DNA from: an uncultured Spirochaetales bacterium
GTDB lineage: Bacteria; Spirochaetota; Spirochaetia; Sphaerochaetales; Sphaerochaetaceae
Reading direction: 5' to 3'
DNA length: 64,000 bases
Assembly: GCA_949297785.1 (NCBI GenBank)
Contig: CASFTW010000001.1
Location: 124,001 to 188,000 of the forward strand
Under the pieces are notes generated by a model. The model did no database searches, had not been told where the DNA came from, and saw nothing but the letters and a program-made list of their open reading frames with translations. Positions 2,529 to 41,363 of this stretch are shown here, one piece after another; position 1 is the stretch's first letter, and every line of letters begins with the position of its first letter. Position numbers and translations under genes: made by a program.

Positions 2529-4271
2529 GTGTACGAATTTCTGCTTGAATCACTGATTGAATCACTTGAAGAGGGAATGAGCGCATCTGAGATCGAAGCA
2601 TTCAAATCCAGGGCTCTGGATTACATCAGCAGGGAAAAGGAATATGATTCATATATTCAGGACAGTCTGGATGAAGAAGATGCAGGAAGCAGGATACTCA
2701 GAAAGCTTGAATCATCCGCCTGTCAGATGAGCCGTATTACGGTGGAACGCATCAGGGCAATGTGGAACACTGTTATAAAGTCGGAAGGCTCAGATGACGA
2801 CGTGAATAAAAAGAGGCTTCAGATTCTGTCCCAATTTGCTGATATGAAAGCCGTCGCTTTCAAGGCCCCTGATATCTCCAGAGCCCAGAAGACAATGAAT
2901 GCATCACATTCCGGTATGGATAAGCTGAAGTCTTTCTTGCTTGATGAAATCGCATCATCGGCTGCAAACGGCAGAAGTCCTCATCCTCTTCTGCTTGTGG
3001 GAAGCCCCGGATGCGGTAAGACAAGCCTTGCACTCAGTCTTGCTTCCGCATTCCCTGAAAGAGGATCGGCACTCATAAGCATGAGCGGAAAATCAGCGGC
3101 ATTCGAACTGTGCGGTTCAGATCAGTCATGGCGTGCATCTGACTGCGGCCTTATAATCAAGGCATTCCTTCAGGCAGGTTCTCTTTCTCCTGTGATAGTT
3201 TTCGATGAACTCGACAAAGCCGGAACCAGTGATACACACTCGCGTGCAGACAGTGTTTTCCTTGAACTTCTTGAGAGAGAATCTGCGCGGCTGTTCACCG
3301 ACAATTTTCTCTCTCTTCCGGTGGATGTTTCAAACGGCTGGTTCATATTCACGGCGAACACGCTTGCAGGCATACCTGAACCACTGCTGGACAGGCTTTC
3401 CGTTTTCTTCATGGAACCGTACAGCTATGAAGAACTTCTCGGTATTGCCGGAAGCATCGTGACCCGGCTTAATAAAAGTGCGAAGTGTCCACTCCGTTTC
3501 CCCGATCCCGTCATAAGGAAACTTGTTCTCAGTTCGTTCGGAACAAGTTCATCTGTCCGTCCGCTTCAGCAGAACGTCGAGCGCATTTTCGCACTAAAGG
3601 CCAGAGAAGCTCTGGGCAGTAAAAGGAAAACAGTGCTGGAAGCCAGTGAAGAAGAAATAAATAAAATCCTTAATCGGAATGAATATCCGGATCTTGTAAA
3701 AGATTTCATATACTCCCCCGGGATTGTAAGCGGAATCGGAATTGCAGGGGACAGAGGTTTCATGCAGCCTGTGGAAGCCAGAAACATCAGGTCTTCATTC
3801 CGAGAGATAAAGGTGACCGGCATGGTGGAGAAGGTGATGAGCGAGAGTGCCGATATTGCATATGAACTTGCTGATGCCTATGCATCACAGCATCTTGGCA
3901 GAAGCCTGGAAGCAGTGACGGTAAACTATACATACAGCTTTCACAAAGGAGGGGACTCCGCATCTCTTGCAACCGCACTTGCCATCATATCTGATCTTCT
4001 TTCACTCTGTGCGGATAAATCCACTGCCGTAACCGGAGCTCTGTCTCTAAAGGGCATGGTGCTTCCTGTGGGCTGCATTCTTGCAAAGATCGCCGGTGCC
4101 GCGAATCAGGGGGCAGTGAAGATTATCCTTCCCGAAGGAAACAGAAAGGAAGTGGAAAGCGTTCCATCTCAGCTTCTTCCTTCTGCCGAACTTGTCTATG
4201 TGTCCACATTTGACGAAGCTGTTGAAGCTCTTCTTCATATTTCAGAACTTGAGGTGAGGAAAGGGGCATAG
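2529..4271 (+). CDS. AAA+ protease with LonB-type proteolytic domain
   Basis: An ATP-dependent protease of 580 residues. The helical N-terminus lacks the classical LonN substrate-binding domain. The AAA+ module has Walker A GSPGCGKT (residues 158-165) and Walker B VIVFDELDKA. The C-terminal Lon protease domain has the presumed catalytic Ser477 in GDSAS and Lys520 in VGCILAK, so the Ser-Lys dyad is complete and of LonB type (GDSAS rather than GPSAG). No transmembrane segment was seen, unlike archaeal LonB, so a soluble cytoplasmic enzyme is likely. The GTG start at 2529 is supported by AAGGAG nine bases upstream. It stands alone between decayed DNA and the ribonucleotide reductase operon. Naming it lonB or lon2 is open. 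Confidence 0.85.
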   Translation: MYEFLLESLIESLEEGMSASEIEAFKSRALDYISREKEYDSYIQDSLDEEDAGSRILRKLESSACQMSRITVERIRAMWNTVIKSEGSDDDVNKKRLQILSQFADMKAVAFKAPDISRAQKTMNASHSGMDKLKSFLLDEIASSAANGRSPHPLLLVGSPGCGKTSLALSLASAFPERGSALISMSGKSAAFELCGSDQSWRASDCGLIIKAFLQAGSLSPVIVFDELDKAGTSDTHSRADSVFLELLERESARLFTDNFLSLPVDVSNGWFIFTANTLAGIPEPLLDRLSVFFMEPYSYEELLGIAGSIVTRLNKSAKCPLRFPDPVIRKLVLSSFGTSSSVRPLQQNVERIFALKAREALGSKRKTVLEASEEEINKILNRNEYPDLVKDFIYSPGIVSGIGIAGDRGFMQPVEARNIRSSFREIKVTGMVEKVMSESADIAYELADAYASQHLGRSLEAVTVNYTYSFHKGGDSASLATALAIISDLLSLCADKSTAVTGALSLKGMVLPVGCILAKIAGAANQGAVKIILPEGNRKEVESVPSQLLPSAELVYVSTFDEAVEALLHISELEVRKGA

Positions 4272-8009: not shown

Positions 8010-8034
8010 TCGTCAGCTTATCATCATTTTAATG

Positions 8035-8069
8035 CCTCTTCTGTCTTTGCGGCGGAAGAGGTTTCTTTT
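8035..8069 (+). terminator. Probable terminator after nrdB
   Basis: CCTCTTC (8035-8041) pairs with GAAGAGG (8055-8061) and is followed by TTTCTTTT. It ends 12 bases before the next start codon, so it may only partly insulate the kinase-like gene. Confidence 0.55.
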
Positions 8070-8080
8070 AAGATTACAGC

Positions 8081-8632
8081 ATGAGTGAAGAAATAAACGT
8101 ACTTCTTATAACCGGCGCATCGCATACCGGAAAGACGAATTTCAGCTGTCATCTGATGAATAAGCTGTCCATTCCGTATTTCTCGATCGACTGGCTCAAG
8201 ATGGGCCTGATCAGAAGTGGAGTATGTCCGTACAATGTCAGTGAGGATGAGCATCTTACGCAATACCTCTGGCCGGTTGTCAGAAGTATGATGATGACGG
8301 TTGTGGAAAACAGGCAGAAGCTGATCATCGAAGGCTGCTATGTTCCATCCGCCTGGCGCAATGATTTTGACAGCCGGTATCTCAGCCACATCCGGGGCAT
8401 CACCCTCATAATGAGTGAAGACTATATAAGAAGGCATGAAAGCCAGATCCATGAGTTCTCATCCTGCACTGAGAAGCGCATATGCGATGATGTTGATACA
8501 GACAGGCTCATTGAGGATAACCTCCGTCTTCTTGAGGAGGCAAAAAGGCTTTCAGCCCCGTATCTTCTGATAGATGATGAGTATCCTTCTGCCTCTCATA
8601 TGGCCCAGATATTCTGTGGAGATTTGATGTAA
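8081..8632 (+). CDS. Small P-loop kinase-like protein
   Basis: Protein of 183 residues opening with VLLITGASHTGKTNFSCHL. The Walker A GASHTGKT lies near residue 11. The fold suggested is that of adenylate-kinase-like small-molecule kinases (shikimate kinase, 2-phosphoglycerate kinase, zeta/AAA_33-type). A central segment KLIIEGCYVPSAW is typical of Walker-B-like strands in this group, and an Arg-rich lid region (YIRRHESQ) follows. The substrate cannot be told. It comes directly after the nrdAB terminator and has no clear ribosome binding site of its own, so weak read-through expression is possible. I see no zeta-toxin antitoxin partner. Confidence 0.65.
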   Translation: MSEEINVLLITGASHTGKTNFSCHLMNKLSIPYFSIDWLKMGLIRSGVCPYNVSEDEHLTQYLWPVVRSMMMTVVENRQKLIIEGCYVPSAWRNDFDSRYLSHIRGITLIMSEDYIRRHESQIHEFSSCTEKRICDDVDTDRLIEDNLRLLEEAKRLSAPYLLIDDEYPSASHMAQIFCGDLM

Positions 8633-8701: not shown

Positions 8702-8730
8702 TTGAAAAATGTATTATTCTGGATTATAGT
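8702..8730 (+). promoter_or_regulatory. Strong sigma70-like promoter for a candidate small RNA
   Basis: TTGAAA (8702-8707), a 17-base spacer and TATAGT (8725-8730) predict a start near 8737. No reading frame follows, but a terminator-like structure does (8784..8830), which is why the intervening segment is listed as a small RNA. Confidence 0.6.
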
Positions 8731-8736
8731 CACAGT

Positions 8737-8830
8737 ATCAAGAAAAAGAGAGATAACTCTCTGATTTAGAATTTGTCCCCTCTGTCCCATTACCTGGCTT
8801 CTCAATGAGCAGGTTTTGGGACTTTTTTTT
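8737..8830 (+). ncRNA. Candidate small RNA of about 94 nt
   Basis: Lies between the kinase-like gene and the convergent Ca2+-ATPase gene. It is bounded by a near-consensus promoter and a two-tier terminator with eight T's. Predicted structure: a first hairpin AGAGAG-ATAA-CTCTCT (8747-8762), a single-stranded stretch with two GTCCC motifs, then the terminator stem. I compared it by eye with 6S RNA, SRP RNA and tmRNA hallmarks and found none. A leader or untranslated end of another gene is unlikely because the next gene is on the other strand. Confidence 0.5.
8784..8830 (+). terminator. Two-tier terminator at the end of the small RNA
   Basis: An outer stem GTCCCA (8784-8789) pairs with TGGGAC (8817-8822), and an inner stem ACCTG (8792-8796) pairs with CAGGT (8810-8814). 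T8 follows at 8823-8830. Confidence 0.65.
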
Positions 8831-8853
8831 AGCTTGAGGAAGAGGGGTACATG

Positions 8854-8898: not shown

Positions 8899-11562
8899 TC
8901 AGTTCTTCTTTGCAATCTTTCTCTGGATGAATTTCTGAACTTCAACGATAGGAATGATCAGCACAGCCATAATGAGGGCGATTGCGAATTCCATCAGCGA
9001 GATGTGCTCGAAGCTGAACGCATCGCGGAGGAACGGAATGTAGAGAACACAGATCGTGAGCACGAATGCTCCCACAAGGGTGTAGAGCAGGTACTTGTTG
9101 TGTCCCTTTATTGAGAAGAGCGACTTGTCAAGACTTCTCATGTTGAATGAATGGAACAGCTCAGCCATTGAGAGGGTGAGGAATGCCATTGTCATGCCGT
9201 GTGTGCTGCTGACTATCTGCAGGTGACCGGTTTCCACGAAATCACCGATGAAATAGCTGACCAGCGTGATTATTGAAACGGCAACGCCCTGGATGAAGCA
9301 GTTGACACCGAGTCCTCCTGCGAAGATTCCTTCGTTCTTCGGTCTCGGCTGACGTGTCATGATATCGTCATCACCTTTTTCCATGCCGAGTCCGATTGCC
9401 GGGAAGCAGTCCGTGATGAGGTTGATCCACAGCAGATGGCTCGGGCGGAGGATTGTGAAGCCCATGACGGAAGCCACGAAAATCGAAATGACCTCTGCCA
9501 TGTTGCTTCCAAGCAGGAACTGGATGGCCTTTCTGATGTTGTCGTAGATCTTTCTTCCTTCAGCAACTGCAGTTACGATGGTTGCGAAGTTGTCATCCGC
9601 AAGAACCATGTCGGCAACATTCTTCGTGACATCGGTACCTGTTATTCCCATGCCGACTCCGATATCAGCATTCTTGATTGACGGAGCATCGTTGACACCG
9701 TCACCGGTCATTGCAGTGACCTTGCCGCGGGACTTCCATGCCTGGACGATTCTCACCTTGTGCTCAGGCTGTACACGGGCATATACAGAGTACTGCTCGA
9801 TCTTCGAATCAAGCTCCTCATCGCTCATCTTGTCGAGATCCGCGCCTGTGAGAGCCTCGGCTGCGGACTGGATGATGCCAAGTTCCTTTGCGATTGCGAC
9901 TGCGGTATCCTTGTGGTCGCCGGTTATCATGACGACGTGGATGCCTGCGCTCTTGCATTCCTCAACCGCGATCTTCACTTCTGGCCTTATAGGATCGATC
10001 ATGCCAACAAGACCGATGAAAGTGAGGTTGTCCTCAATGTATTTCGCATCATAGTTCACCGGTTCGACTTCCCAGTCCCTGTATGAAGCGGCAAGAACAC
10101 GCAGTGCCCTGTCGGCAAATGCCTTGTTCTGTGCAAGCACGTCTTCCCTGTCCTTGTCGGTCATGGCTACGACCTTGCCGTCCTTGAGAATTGAGGAGCA
10201 CTTCTTGAGAATCTCATCAGGAGCACCTTTTGTGAACTGGATGAAATCGTCTCCGCCGTTGTCGGTATGGACGGTGCTCATCATCTTTCTCGATGAGTCG
10301 AAAGGAGCCTCTCCGACACGTCTGTATGCGCCTTTCTCAAGTTCGTTCTTGTTTATGCCGAGTGTGTATGCATAGTTCACGAGAGCACATTCGGTGGGCT
10401 CTCCGATAGCCTGGTTGTTCTCATCAAGCTTGCTGTCGCAGCACAGAGCCATTGCCTTTGCGAGCAGCTCCTCATTGCTTGTCCACTTGTCGACGACTGT
10501 CATCTTGTTCTGGGTGAGGGTTCCTGTCTTATCCGAGCAGATCACCTGTGTACAGCCAAGAGTCTCCACGGCAGTGAGCTTTCTGATGATCGCCTTGTTG
10601 CGGCTCATCTTTGTCACGCCGATTGAAAGAACTATGGTGACGACCGCGGCAAGGCCTTCGGGAATTGCGGCAACCGCAAGTGAGATGGCTACCATGAAGG
10701 TGTCGAGAATTCCGTTGAAGGAGACTGTGCCGTTCACGATATACATTCTGATTATGTCGATTGCGAAGATGACGACACAGATGCCGAGGACGAGGTAGGT
10801 GAGTATCTTGCTCAGCTGATTGAGCTTGATCTGAAGCGGAGTGAGCTCTTCCTTAGCAGTCTGGATTGCACTTGCGATCTTGCCCATCTCTGTATTCATG
10901 CCTGTTGATGTGATCACGGCCTTTCCTCTTCCGTAAACGACGGTTGAACCCATGTAAACCATGTTCTTCCTGTCGCCGAGCGGAACTTCGCCGTCTGAGG
11001 ATGCGCTGAGAGCCTCAACCTGCTTGTCGACCGGCACTGATTCACCTGTGAGCGCGGCTTCCTCGATCTTCATTGAAGCACATTCGATGATTCTGCCGTC
11101 TGCCGGCACGGAATCTCCGGCTTCAAGTATCACGATATCGCCGGCTGCGAGATCTTCGGAGTGGACGCTTACCTGCCTTCCGTCCCTTATGACCTTGCTG
11201 GTCGCGGCGCTCATTTCCTGCAGTGCCTCGATTGCCTTTTCCGCCTTGCTTTCCTGAACGACACCGAGAATCGCATTGAGGAGAACGACGACGAGAATGA
11301 TGATGGCGTCGGTGAATTCGATCTCACCGGAAGCTGCGCTGGTGATGACTGAAAGCACGGCTGCGATCATCAGTATGATGAGCATCGGTTCCTTGAGTTC
11401 GTCAAAGAACTTCTTGAGCATTGAATCCTTCTTTGCTTCAGCGAGCTTGTTCTTGCCGTCCCTTTCAAGCCTTGATCTGACTTCGTTTTCACTCAGTCCC
11501 TTTTCGGCATTGACTTTCTGACTGTCAAGAACCTCCTGATAGCTGGAGAGGTATTCTTTCAT
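8899..11562 (-). CDS. P-type Ca2+-transporting ATPase (SERCA/PMCA type)
   Basis: An inner-membrane P2A-type ATPase of 887 residues that pumps Ca2+ out of the cytoplasm. It has an N-terminal cation ATPase domain, the actuator motif LTGES, phosphorylation site CSDKTGTLTQ, hinge GDGVNDAPSIK, and ten predicted membrane segments. Transport-site residues of calcium pumps are present: PEGL in M4, N and E in GSNMAEV (M5), and N, T and D in INLITDCFP (M6). These support Ca2+ rather than Na+/K+ or Mg2+ as substrate. The gene is monocistronic on the minus strand with its own terminator. A ribosome binding site (GGAGG) lies before the ATG at 11562, and the upstream region is shared with the divergent gene at 11785. 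Confidence 0.9.
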   Translation of the reverse strand: MKEYLSSYQEVLDSQKVNAEKGLSENEVRSRLERDGKNKLAEAKKDSMLKKFFDELKEPMLIILMIAAVLSVITSAASGEIEFTDAIIILVVVLLNAILGVVQESKAEKAIEALQEMSAATSKVIRDGRQVSVHSEDLAAGDIVILEAGDSVPADGRIIECASMKIEEAALTGESVPVDKQVEALSASSDGEVPLGDRKNMVYMGSTVVYGRGKAVITSTGMNTEMGKIASAIQTAKEELTPLQIKLNQLSKILTYLVLGICVVIFAIDIIRMYIVNGTVSFNGILDTFMVAISLAVAAIPEGLAAVVTIVLSIGVTKMSRNKAIIRKLTAVETLGCTQVICSDKTGTLTQNKMTVVDKWTSNEELLAKAMALCCDSKLDENNQAIGEPTECALVNYAYTLGINKNELEKGAYRRVGEAPFDSSRKMMSTVHTDNGGDDFIQFTKGAPDEILKKCSSILKDGKVVAMTDKDREDVLAQNKAFADRALRVLAASYRDWEVEPVNYDAKYIEDNLTFIGLVGMIDPIRPEVKIAVEECKSAGIHVVMITGDHKDTAVAIAKELGIIQSAAEALTGADLDKMSDEELDSKIEQYSVYARVQPEHKVRIVQAWKSRGKVTAMTGDGVNDAPSIKNADIGVGMGITGTDVTKNVADMVLADDNFATIVTAVAEGRKIYDNIRKAIQFLLGSNMAEVISIFVASVMGFTILRPSHLLWINLITDCFPAIGLGMEKGDDDIMTRQPRPKNEGIFAGGLGVNCFIQGVAVSIITLVSYFIGDFVETGHLQIVSSTHGMTMAFLTLSMAELFHSFNMRSLDKSLFSIKGHNKYLLYTLVGAFVLTICVLYIPFLRDAFSFEHISLMEFAIALIMAVLIIPIVEVQKFIQRKIAKKN

Positions 11563-40946: not shown

Positions 40947-40986
40947 AAAAGCCTCATTCCGGATTTTGTTGGAAATGAGGCTTTTT
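40947..40986. terminator. Bidirectional terminator between sir2 and the tmRNA gene
   Basis: GCCTCATTCC (40951-40960) pairs with GGAAATGAGGC (40971-40981) with a one-base bulge. It is flanked by AAAA upstream and T5 downstream, so it can end the sir2 transcript on the + strand and sit behind the tmRNA on the - strand. Confidence 0.75.
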
Positions 40987-40988
40987 AA

Positions 40989-41363
40989 TGGAGGTGAGGA
41001 GACTCGCACTCCTGTCCTGCCGGGACATCCTGAAACGTCTACAGAGCTTAGCCGCATTTTGGTTTTTCCCGTTCAGATAGCGTAATGCTGCCAACGCACC
41101 TGTACGGTATTTGCCTTAGAGTCCCTCAGCCCCGGCAACTGGGAAGAGGCAAGACCCTGTTGGTGTCGGACAGTCTCGGGTTAGGATCAGTACCTTCAAC
41201 GCCGTGCTCTAAAAACACTGCTTAGGCAGCGAGAGCGAGTGCTTCGTCAGAGACGTATTCGTCTTCTTTCTTTGCATTTAATTTTTGGTGATAGTTTTAC
41301 AAGTTGTCGCTTGGCCTGCAGTCTCAAGCCTGCTCTGCCGGCAGTCGAAACTGGAACACCCCC
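40989..41363 (-). ncRNA. ssrA: Transfer-messenger RNA (tmRNA)
   Basis: About 375 nt on the minus strand. The tRNA-like ends pair: 5' GGGGGTG (41363..41357) with 3' CACCTCC (40996..40990), followed by discriminator A at 40989. CCA is not encoded. The T arm is AGGAG / TGCGAGT / CTCCT. The tag reading frame 41275..41222 gives AKKEDEYVSDEALALAA and stop TAA, ending in the usual LAA-type degradation signal. The resume codon is taken as GCA at 41275..41273, which is inferred. A -10 box (GATAAT) lies six bases upstream of the 5' end with TTGTTA further up. Partner SmpB is encoded 0.7 kb away. Confidence 0.95.

Follow-up and report, generated by a model that had tools for sequence, protein, structure and literature searches.

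A short intergenic interval in the window (the whole 64,000-nucleotide stretch of spirochaetal DNA analysed here) raises the question of whether it holds a gene for a small RNA (sRNA) and, if so, what such an RNA would do. The initial annotation had described a promoter, a perfect AGAGAG/CTCTCT hairpin, a two-tier stem and a run of eight T, and all of these are present at 8702–8830 of the forward strand. The sigma-70-type promoter-like pair, TTGAAA-17-TATAGT (8702–8730, +), consists of a −35-like hexamer at 8702–8707, a 17-nt spacer and a −10-like hexamer at 8725–8730. It is followed by the 5′ hairpin, predicted to fold as AGAGAG-AUAA-CUCUCU (8747–8762, +), and by a two-tier intrinsic terminator (8784–8830, +), whose outer (GUCCCA/UGGGAC) and inner (ACCUG/CAGGU) tiers occupy 8784–8822, with T8 at 8823–8830. 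Placing the start 7 nt past the −10 box and the end within the T run gives a predicted sRNA of about 92 nt (8737–8830, +); the folding energy of the 93-nt RNA is −28.6 kcal/mol, compared with a mean of −18.9 kcal/mol for shuffled sequences (z = −2.9). The 21 nt between the two hairpins (8762 to 8784) are mostly unpaired in the predicted fold and include the core GAAUUUGUCCCCUCUG (8769–8784, +; GAATTTGTCCCCTCTG in DNA letters), a putative target-pairing seed. Both GTCCC motifs that had been pointed out are there, at 8775–8779 and 8784–8788, but they are not equivalent, the first lying in the unpaired core and the second being the 5′ arm of the terminator. As had been annotated, the element contains no plausible open reading frame (ORF); a short TTG frame of 10–11 codons in the core was rejected, since it has no ribosome-binding site and its continuation differs in the most distant copy, G009 (see below).

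In the window genome alone, the promoter match is no more than the chance expectation, with 2 promoter-like matches in 2.5 kb against 3.3 expected in shuffled sequences. In an interval this long, chance alone would be expected to yield such a match, and the evidence from a single genome is therefore moderate only. The neighbouring genes had been described as facing away or converging, which is incorrect: the gene for a Ca-type P-ATPase (8899–11562, −) converges on the element, but a kinase-like ORF of 183 amino acids (8081–8632, +) is co-directional, and its stop is 69 nt upstream of the −35 box. Because of this orientation, and because no terminator-like site is listed between the stop and 8784, the terminator could also serve the kinase-like gene, so that, judged from the window genome by itself, the statement that it cannot belong to a neighbour does not hold. 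The whole element could then be the 3′ untranslated region (UTR) and terminator of the kinase-like gene, or of an nrdAB-kinase run, with or without processing to a 3′-UTR-derived sRNA, and the promoter-like pair would be fortuitous. The label "kinase-like" comes only from inspection of an ITGASHTGKT motif; the ORF has no match in Pfam or NCBIfam, and is present in only 4 of the 41 genomes searched, its own included.

Comparison between species shows a conserved element with conserved promoter hexamers, a conserved core that is predicted to be unpaired, and a terminator helix that has changed on both sides of some of its pairs. Four species of the genus Candidatus Aphodenecus (Spirochaetales) have it next to their Ca-ATPase gene: that of the window and three others, G001, G010 and G009. 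A search of 61 genomes returned strong matches in G001 (95%) and G010 (87%), both with the gene order of the window, nrdA-nrdB-kinase-RNA-ATPase, while the copy in G009 was seen by looking downstream of the Ca-ATPase gene in other congeners. The position just downstream of nrdAB, given in the initial annotation, thus applies to the window, G001 and G010, but the constant neighbour is the Ca-ATPase gene, and nrdAB does not adjoin the element in the examined stretch of G009. Between the window and G010, core and terminator (8768–8822) are identical at 55 of 55 positions, compared with 56/69 in the upstream spacer, 10/16 in the 5′ leader and 15/25 in the 25 bases past the terminator; flanks, leader and spacer are about 60–80% identical. 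Relative to the window, the promoter hexamers are identical at 12 of 12 positions in G001 and at 11 of 12 in G010, where the single change (TATAGT to TATAAT) is towards the consensus, and the 17-nt promoter spacer of G010 retains 11 identities. Conservation of the stems in close relatives, on which the original proposal had been made to depend, is therefore seen for the 3′ stem, together with the core and the hexamers. The 5′ hairpin is kept in G001 with a different loop and has lost one pair in G010, and other hairpins are found in G009.

The G009 copy keeps GAATTTGTCCCCTCTG, directly followed by a two-tier hairpin and then a T-rich tail, but the stem letters and loops of this terminator differ from those of the window (GGCCC...GGGCC). 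The core is identical in the four species, with the letters GUCCCCUCU invariant among known copies, and in G009 it is the only primary sequence kept besides stem bases. We estimate the chance of a perfect 16-mer at the syntenic place at about 1e-7 in a 300-bp spacer. In helix 1 of the terminator, comparison of the window with G009 shows two-sided changes in 3 of the 9 pairs, with pairing intact throughout. A shuffle control on terminator pairing gave 63/500, a weak result as there are only three distinct sequences, but the slid controls all pair far worse (33–64% of cells vs 94%). G009 has a promoter-like pair of its own, TTGCAT-17-TATATT, and a longer 5′ part, giving an RNA of about 220 nt if this pair is used; a DNA search of 138 family genomes returned no relatives of this long 5′ part. 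Since the upstream gene is divergent, with no co-directional gene, and the promoter-like pair is its own, the predicted RNA in G009 must be free-standing and cannot be a neighbouring gene's tail.

These comparisons also bear on the 3′ UTR alternative, which we consider unlikely. Core and terminator are retained in G009, even though there is no co-directional gene from which a 3′ UTR could extend; the kinase-like ORF is frameshifted in G010 (possibly by assembly error), yet core and terminator are unchanged there; and drift in the promoter spacer has left the hexamers on either side of it in place.

A covariance search of related genomes for the stem pattern and synteny, which the initial annotation had suggested, recovered four copies, all beside the Ca-ATPase gene. 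The model of core plus terminator detects them at E values of no more than 3e-11. Among the other 135 of the 139 family genomes, the 12 remaining congeners included, there was no credible match, most of the genomes compared being draft metagenome-assembled, so that some absences may reflect incompleteness. With only four species holding the element, independent comparisons are few. The weak matches elsewhere resemble ordinary terminators; the best of them (G000 C11:36673–36727; 25.5 bits, E = 0.04) comprises GAATTTTTCACTCCTTGTCCTC and a terminator, and was set aside as probably an ordinary terminator. The ATPase tree places G009 with G015 and separates it from the G000/G001/G010 clade, which suggests that the common ancestor probably already had the element, and that in several species it has since disappeared, changed place or diverged; transfer between species may be an alternative.

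No Rfam family fits the element, none worth keeping was found nearby at a relaxed threshold, and none falls on the homologous loci. The expectation that the RNA is not 6S, SRP or RNase P RNA is borne out, as no Rfam match for these was obtained at the element, and 6S RNA (RF00013) gave none anywhere in 16 genomes. Conservation in close relatives, the G009 copy and the lack of a fitting Rfam family favour the proposed undescribed, free-standing regulatory RNA. The element is intergenic, has its own predicted promoter and terminator, and is conserved as RNA beyond close strains (four species, one genus), as is generally expected of sRNA genes; it is best regarded as a putative new family of sRNA, of a kind already known and, on present evidence, confined to one genus. 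Other origins were considered and rejected. For a phage or mobile origin, the 39-nt terminator string had no match in viral contigs, where the core had two near-identical matches whose flanks lack the architecture of the element. For a repeat or REP element, a pattern search allowing two mismatches found core and terminator only in the four congeners, the other matches being isolated words in unrelated context. A Planctomycete match of the 19-letter core was attributed to chance, about two being expected.

We consider it highly probable that there is a real RNA at the element, either stand-alone or derived from a 3′ end. With more reserve, we favour the complete statement that it is a stand-alone sRNA gene of about 92 nt, with its own promoter and terminator, whose C-rich seed pairs with ribosome-binding regions elsewhere, independently of Hfq. 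In this mechanism, a sigma-70 promoter and an intrinsic terminator, both belonging to the sRNA gene itself, would set the limits of the transcript, and the two hairpins would keep the C-rich stretch GAAUUUGUCCCCUCUG open as a seed. The partners of this seed would be the G-rich, AGAGGGG-like ribosome-binding regions of mRNAs from other loci, and pairing would block translation or expose the mRNA to RNases, without Hfq. We infer in this way that the element is transcribed, that the core acts as a seed, that the regulation is negative, and what the targets are; the weakest step is the pairing of the seed with ribosome-binding sites. In all four RNAs the core is predicted to be mostly unpaired, with a mean unpaired probability of 0.70–0.85; it is rich in C, and read as its reverse complement, AGAGGGGAC, it looks like a strong ribosome-binding site. 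Hfq was not found in 16 congeners, while positive-control genomes gave matches. UCCC motifs take part in target pairing in LhrC, RsaE, SprD, RNAIII and FsrA (PMC4132741), the C-rich regions of RoxS pair with targets, with Hfq not needed at least for ppnKB (PMC8464778), and Hfq-independent action is reported for both RoxS and FsrA (PMC8464778, PMC4132741). A trans-acting, Hfq-independent repressor of translation is most likely because the core is unpaired, C-rich and complementary to Shine-Dalgarno (SD) sequences, because such UCCC or C-rich sRNAs are documented, and because no Hfq was found.

A conserved RNA acting by binding a protein, through titration or as a decoy, and not by pairing with mRNA, would look alike in having a short invariant core amid variable hairpins, and a protein-binding motif was raised as an alternative for Yfr1 by its authors (PMC2190773). 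However, the core is rich in C and complementary to sequences of the SD type, and inspection of the RNA shows no exposed GGA motif such as CsrA binds, so that we regard this mode of action as quite unlikely. That the locus has no RNA function at all, being ordinary intergenic terminator DNA, a DNA-binding site or the remnant of a repeat or mobile element, is very unlikely: intrinsic terminators are common between convergent genes, but a terminator alone leaves unexplained the invariant single-stranded core of 15–16 nt outside the stem, in species whose flanks have nothing else in common, and as an intergenic element with terminator the motif occurs in a single copy per genome. The two copies of GUCCC in the window, G001 and G010 would fit a switch, or regulated terminator, in which either copy could pair with the 3′ arm GGGAC in competition with the other. 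This is extremely improbable: in G009 the arm is GGCCC/GGGCC, the first copy, GUCCC, can no longer form all its pairs with the 3′ side, and the two-sided changes preserve the true helix.

The sRNA proposed here, which would pair with mRNA, is closest in layout to Yfr1, a cyanobacterial sRNA of 54–69 nt with an unpaired section of 16–20 nt between two hairpins and the core ACUCCUCACAC (PMC2190773). In both, the stretch between two hairpins, the 3′ one being the intrinsic terminator, is unpaired and C/U-rich; its core is perfectly conserved, and the loops of the hairpins are not. The 21-nt spacing found here is one above the published range, the core is GAAUUUGUCCCCUCUG instead of ACUCCUCACAC, the phylum is a different one, the RNA is longer (about 92 nt) and restricted to one genus, and the 5′ part is much longer in the G009 copy; the likeness appears to be one of layout, with no evidence of common descent. 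The Firmicutes sRNAs RoxS/RsaE, FsrA and LhrC (PMC8464778, PMC4132741) also expose C-rich UCCC stretches, and pairing with ribosome-binding sites is shown or proposed there and predicted here; in contrast, no such Rfam covariance-model family was reported for the element, giving no sequence homology by Rfam, and it has one C-rich region where they have several. Like 3′-UTR-derived sRNAs, the element is downstream of a co-directional gene and shares the only visible terminator of that gene, but it has its own conserved promoter-like hexamers, and G009 has no upstream co-directional gene. It resembles 6S RNA in being a free-standing small RNA, but is about half its length, without the long closing stem and central bubble and without an Rfam match.

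The annotated sRNAs of Spirochaetes are few (PMC9029176 tabulates 6 distinct ones), and control by sRNAs that block ribosome-binding sites, although of a known kind, is little charted there. A conserved sRNA with an unpaired C-rich seed would open post-transcriptional control to study in an uncultured gut lineage, and the C-rich, SD-pairing style of sRNA known from Firmicutes would then reach into another phylum. A pattern search for AGAGGGGA-(2–9)-ATG gave 13–27 sites in the four species with the RNA and 5–16 in the twelve without it, or 8.3 and 5.1 per Mb, respectively (one-sided Mann-Whitney p = 0.085, three of the four species being close relatives). G009 and the G000 clade have no predicted target in common. 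A galactokinase-like gene and a thymidine-kinase-like gene are preceded by sites retained in G000, G001 and G010, but neither gene is in the G009 list, and these candidate targets are leads only. A tentative and rather doubtful extension is that the RNA serves as a master sRNA specific to this genus of gut spirochaetes without Hfq. Its 16-nt C-rich seed would control a set of mRNAs through their ribosome-binding sites (with these two genes among the candidates), and its 5′ domain could be exchanged from species to species, the seed and terminator remaining fixed.

Some further observations concern the surroundings. Directly past the sRNA terminator, AGAGGGG at 8843–8849 (+) is complementary to the sRNA core and is followed by an ATG; this is probably chance, since it is absent from G001. 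In another congener, G011 (L084 near 1501–1531, −), TAATTTGTCCCATTTTTGTGGGACTTTTTTT stands directly before a ribosome-binding site and ATG, and is a possible attenuator. A terminator-like hairpin at 8034–8062 (+), between nrdB and the kinase-like ORF, suggests that nrdAB ends before this ORF, and upstream of nrdA there is an ORF of 580 amino acids for a Lon-like AAA protease (2529–4271, +). The sole gathering-level Rfam match in the window is a tmRNA gene at 40986–41363 (−).
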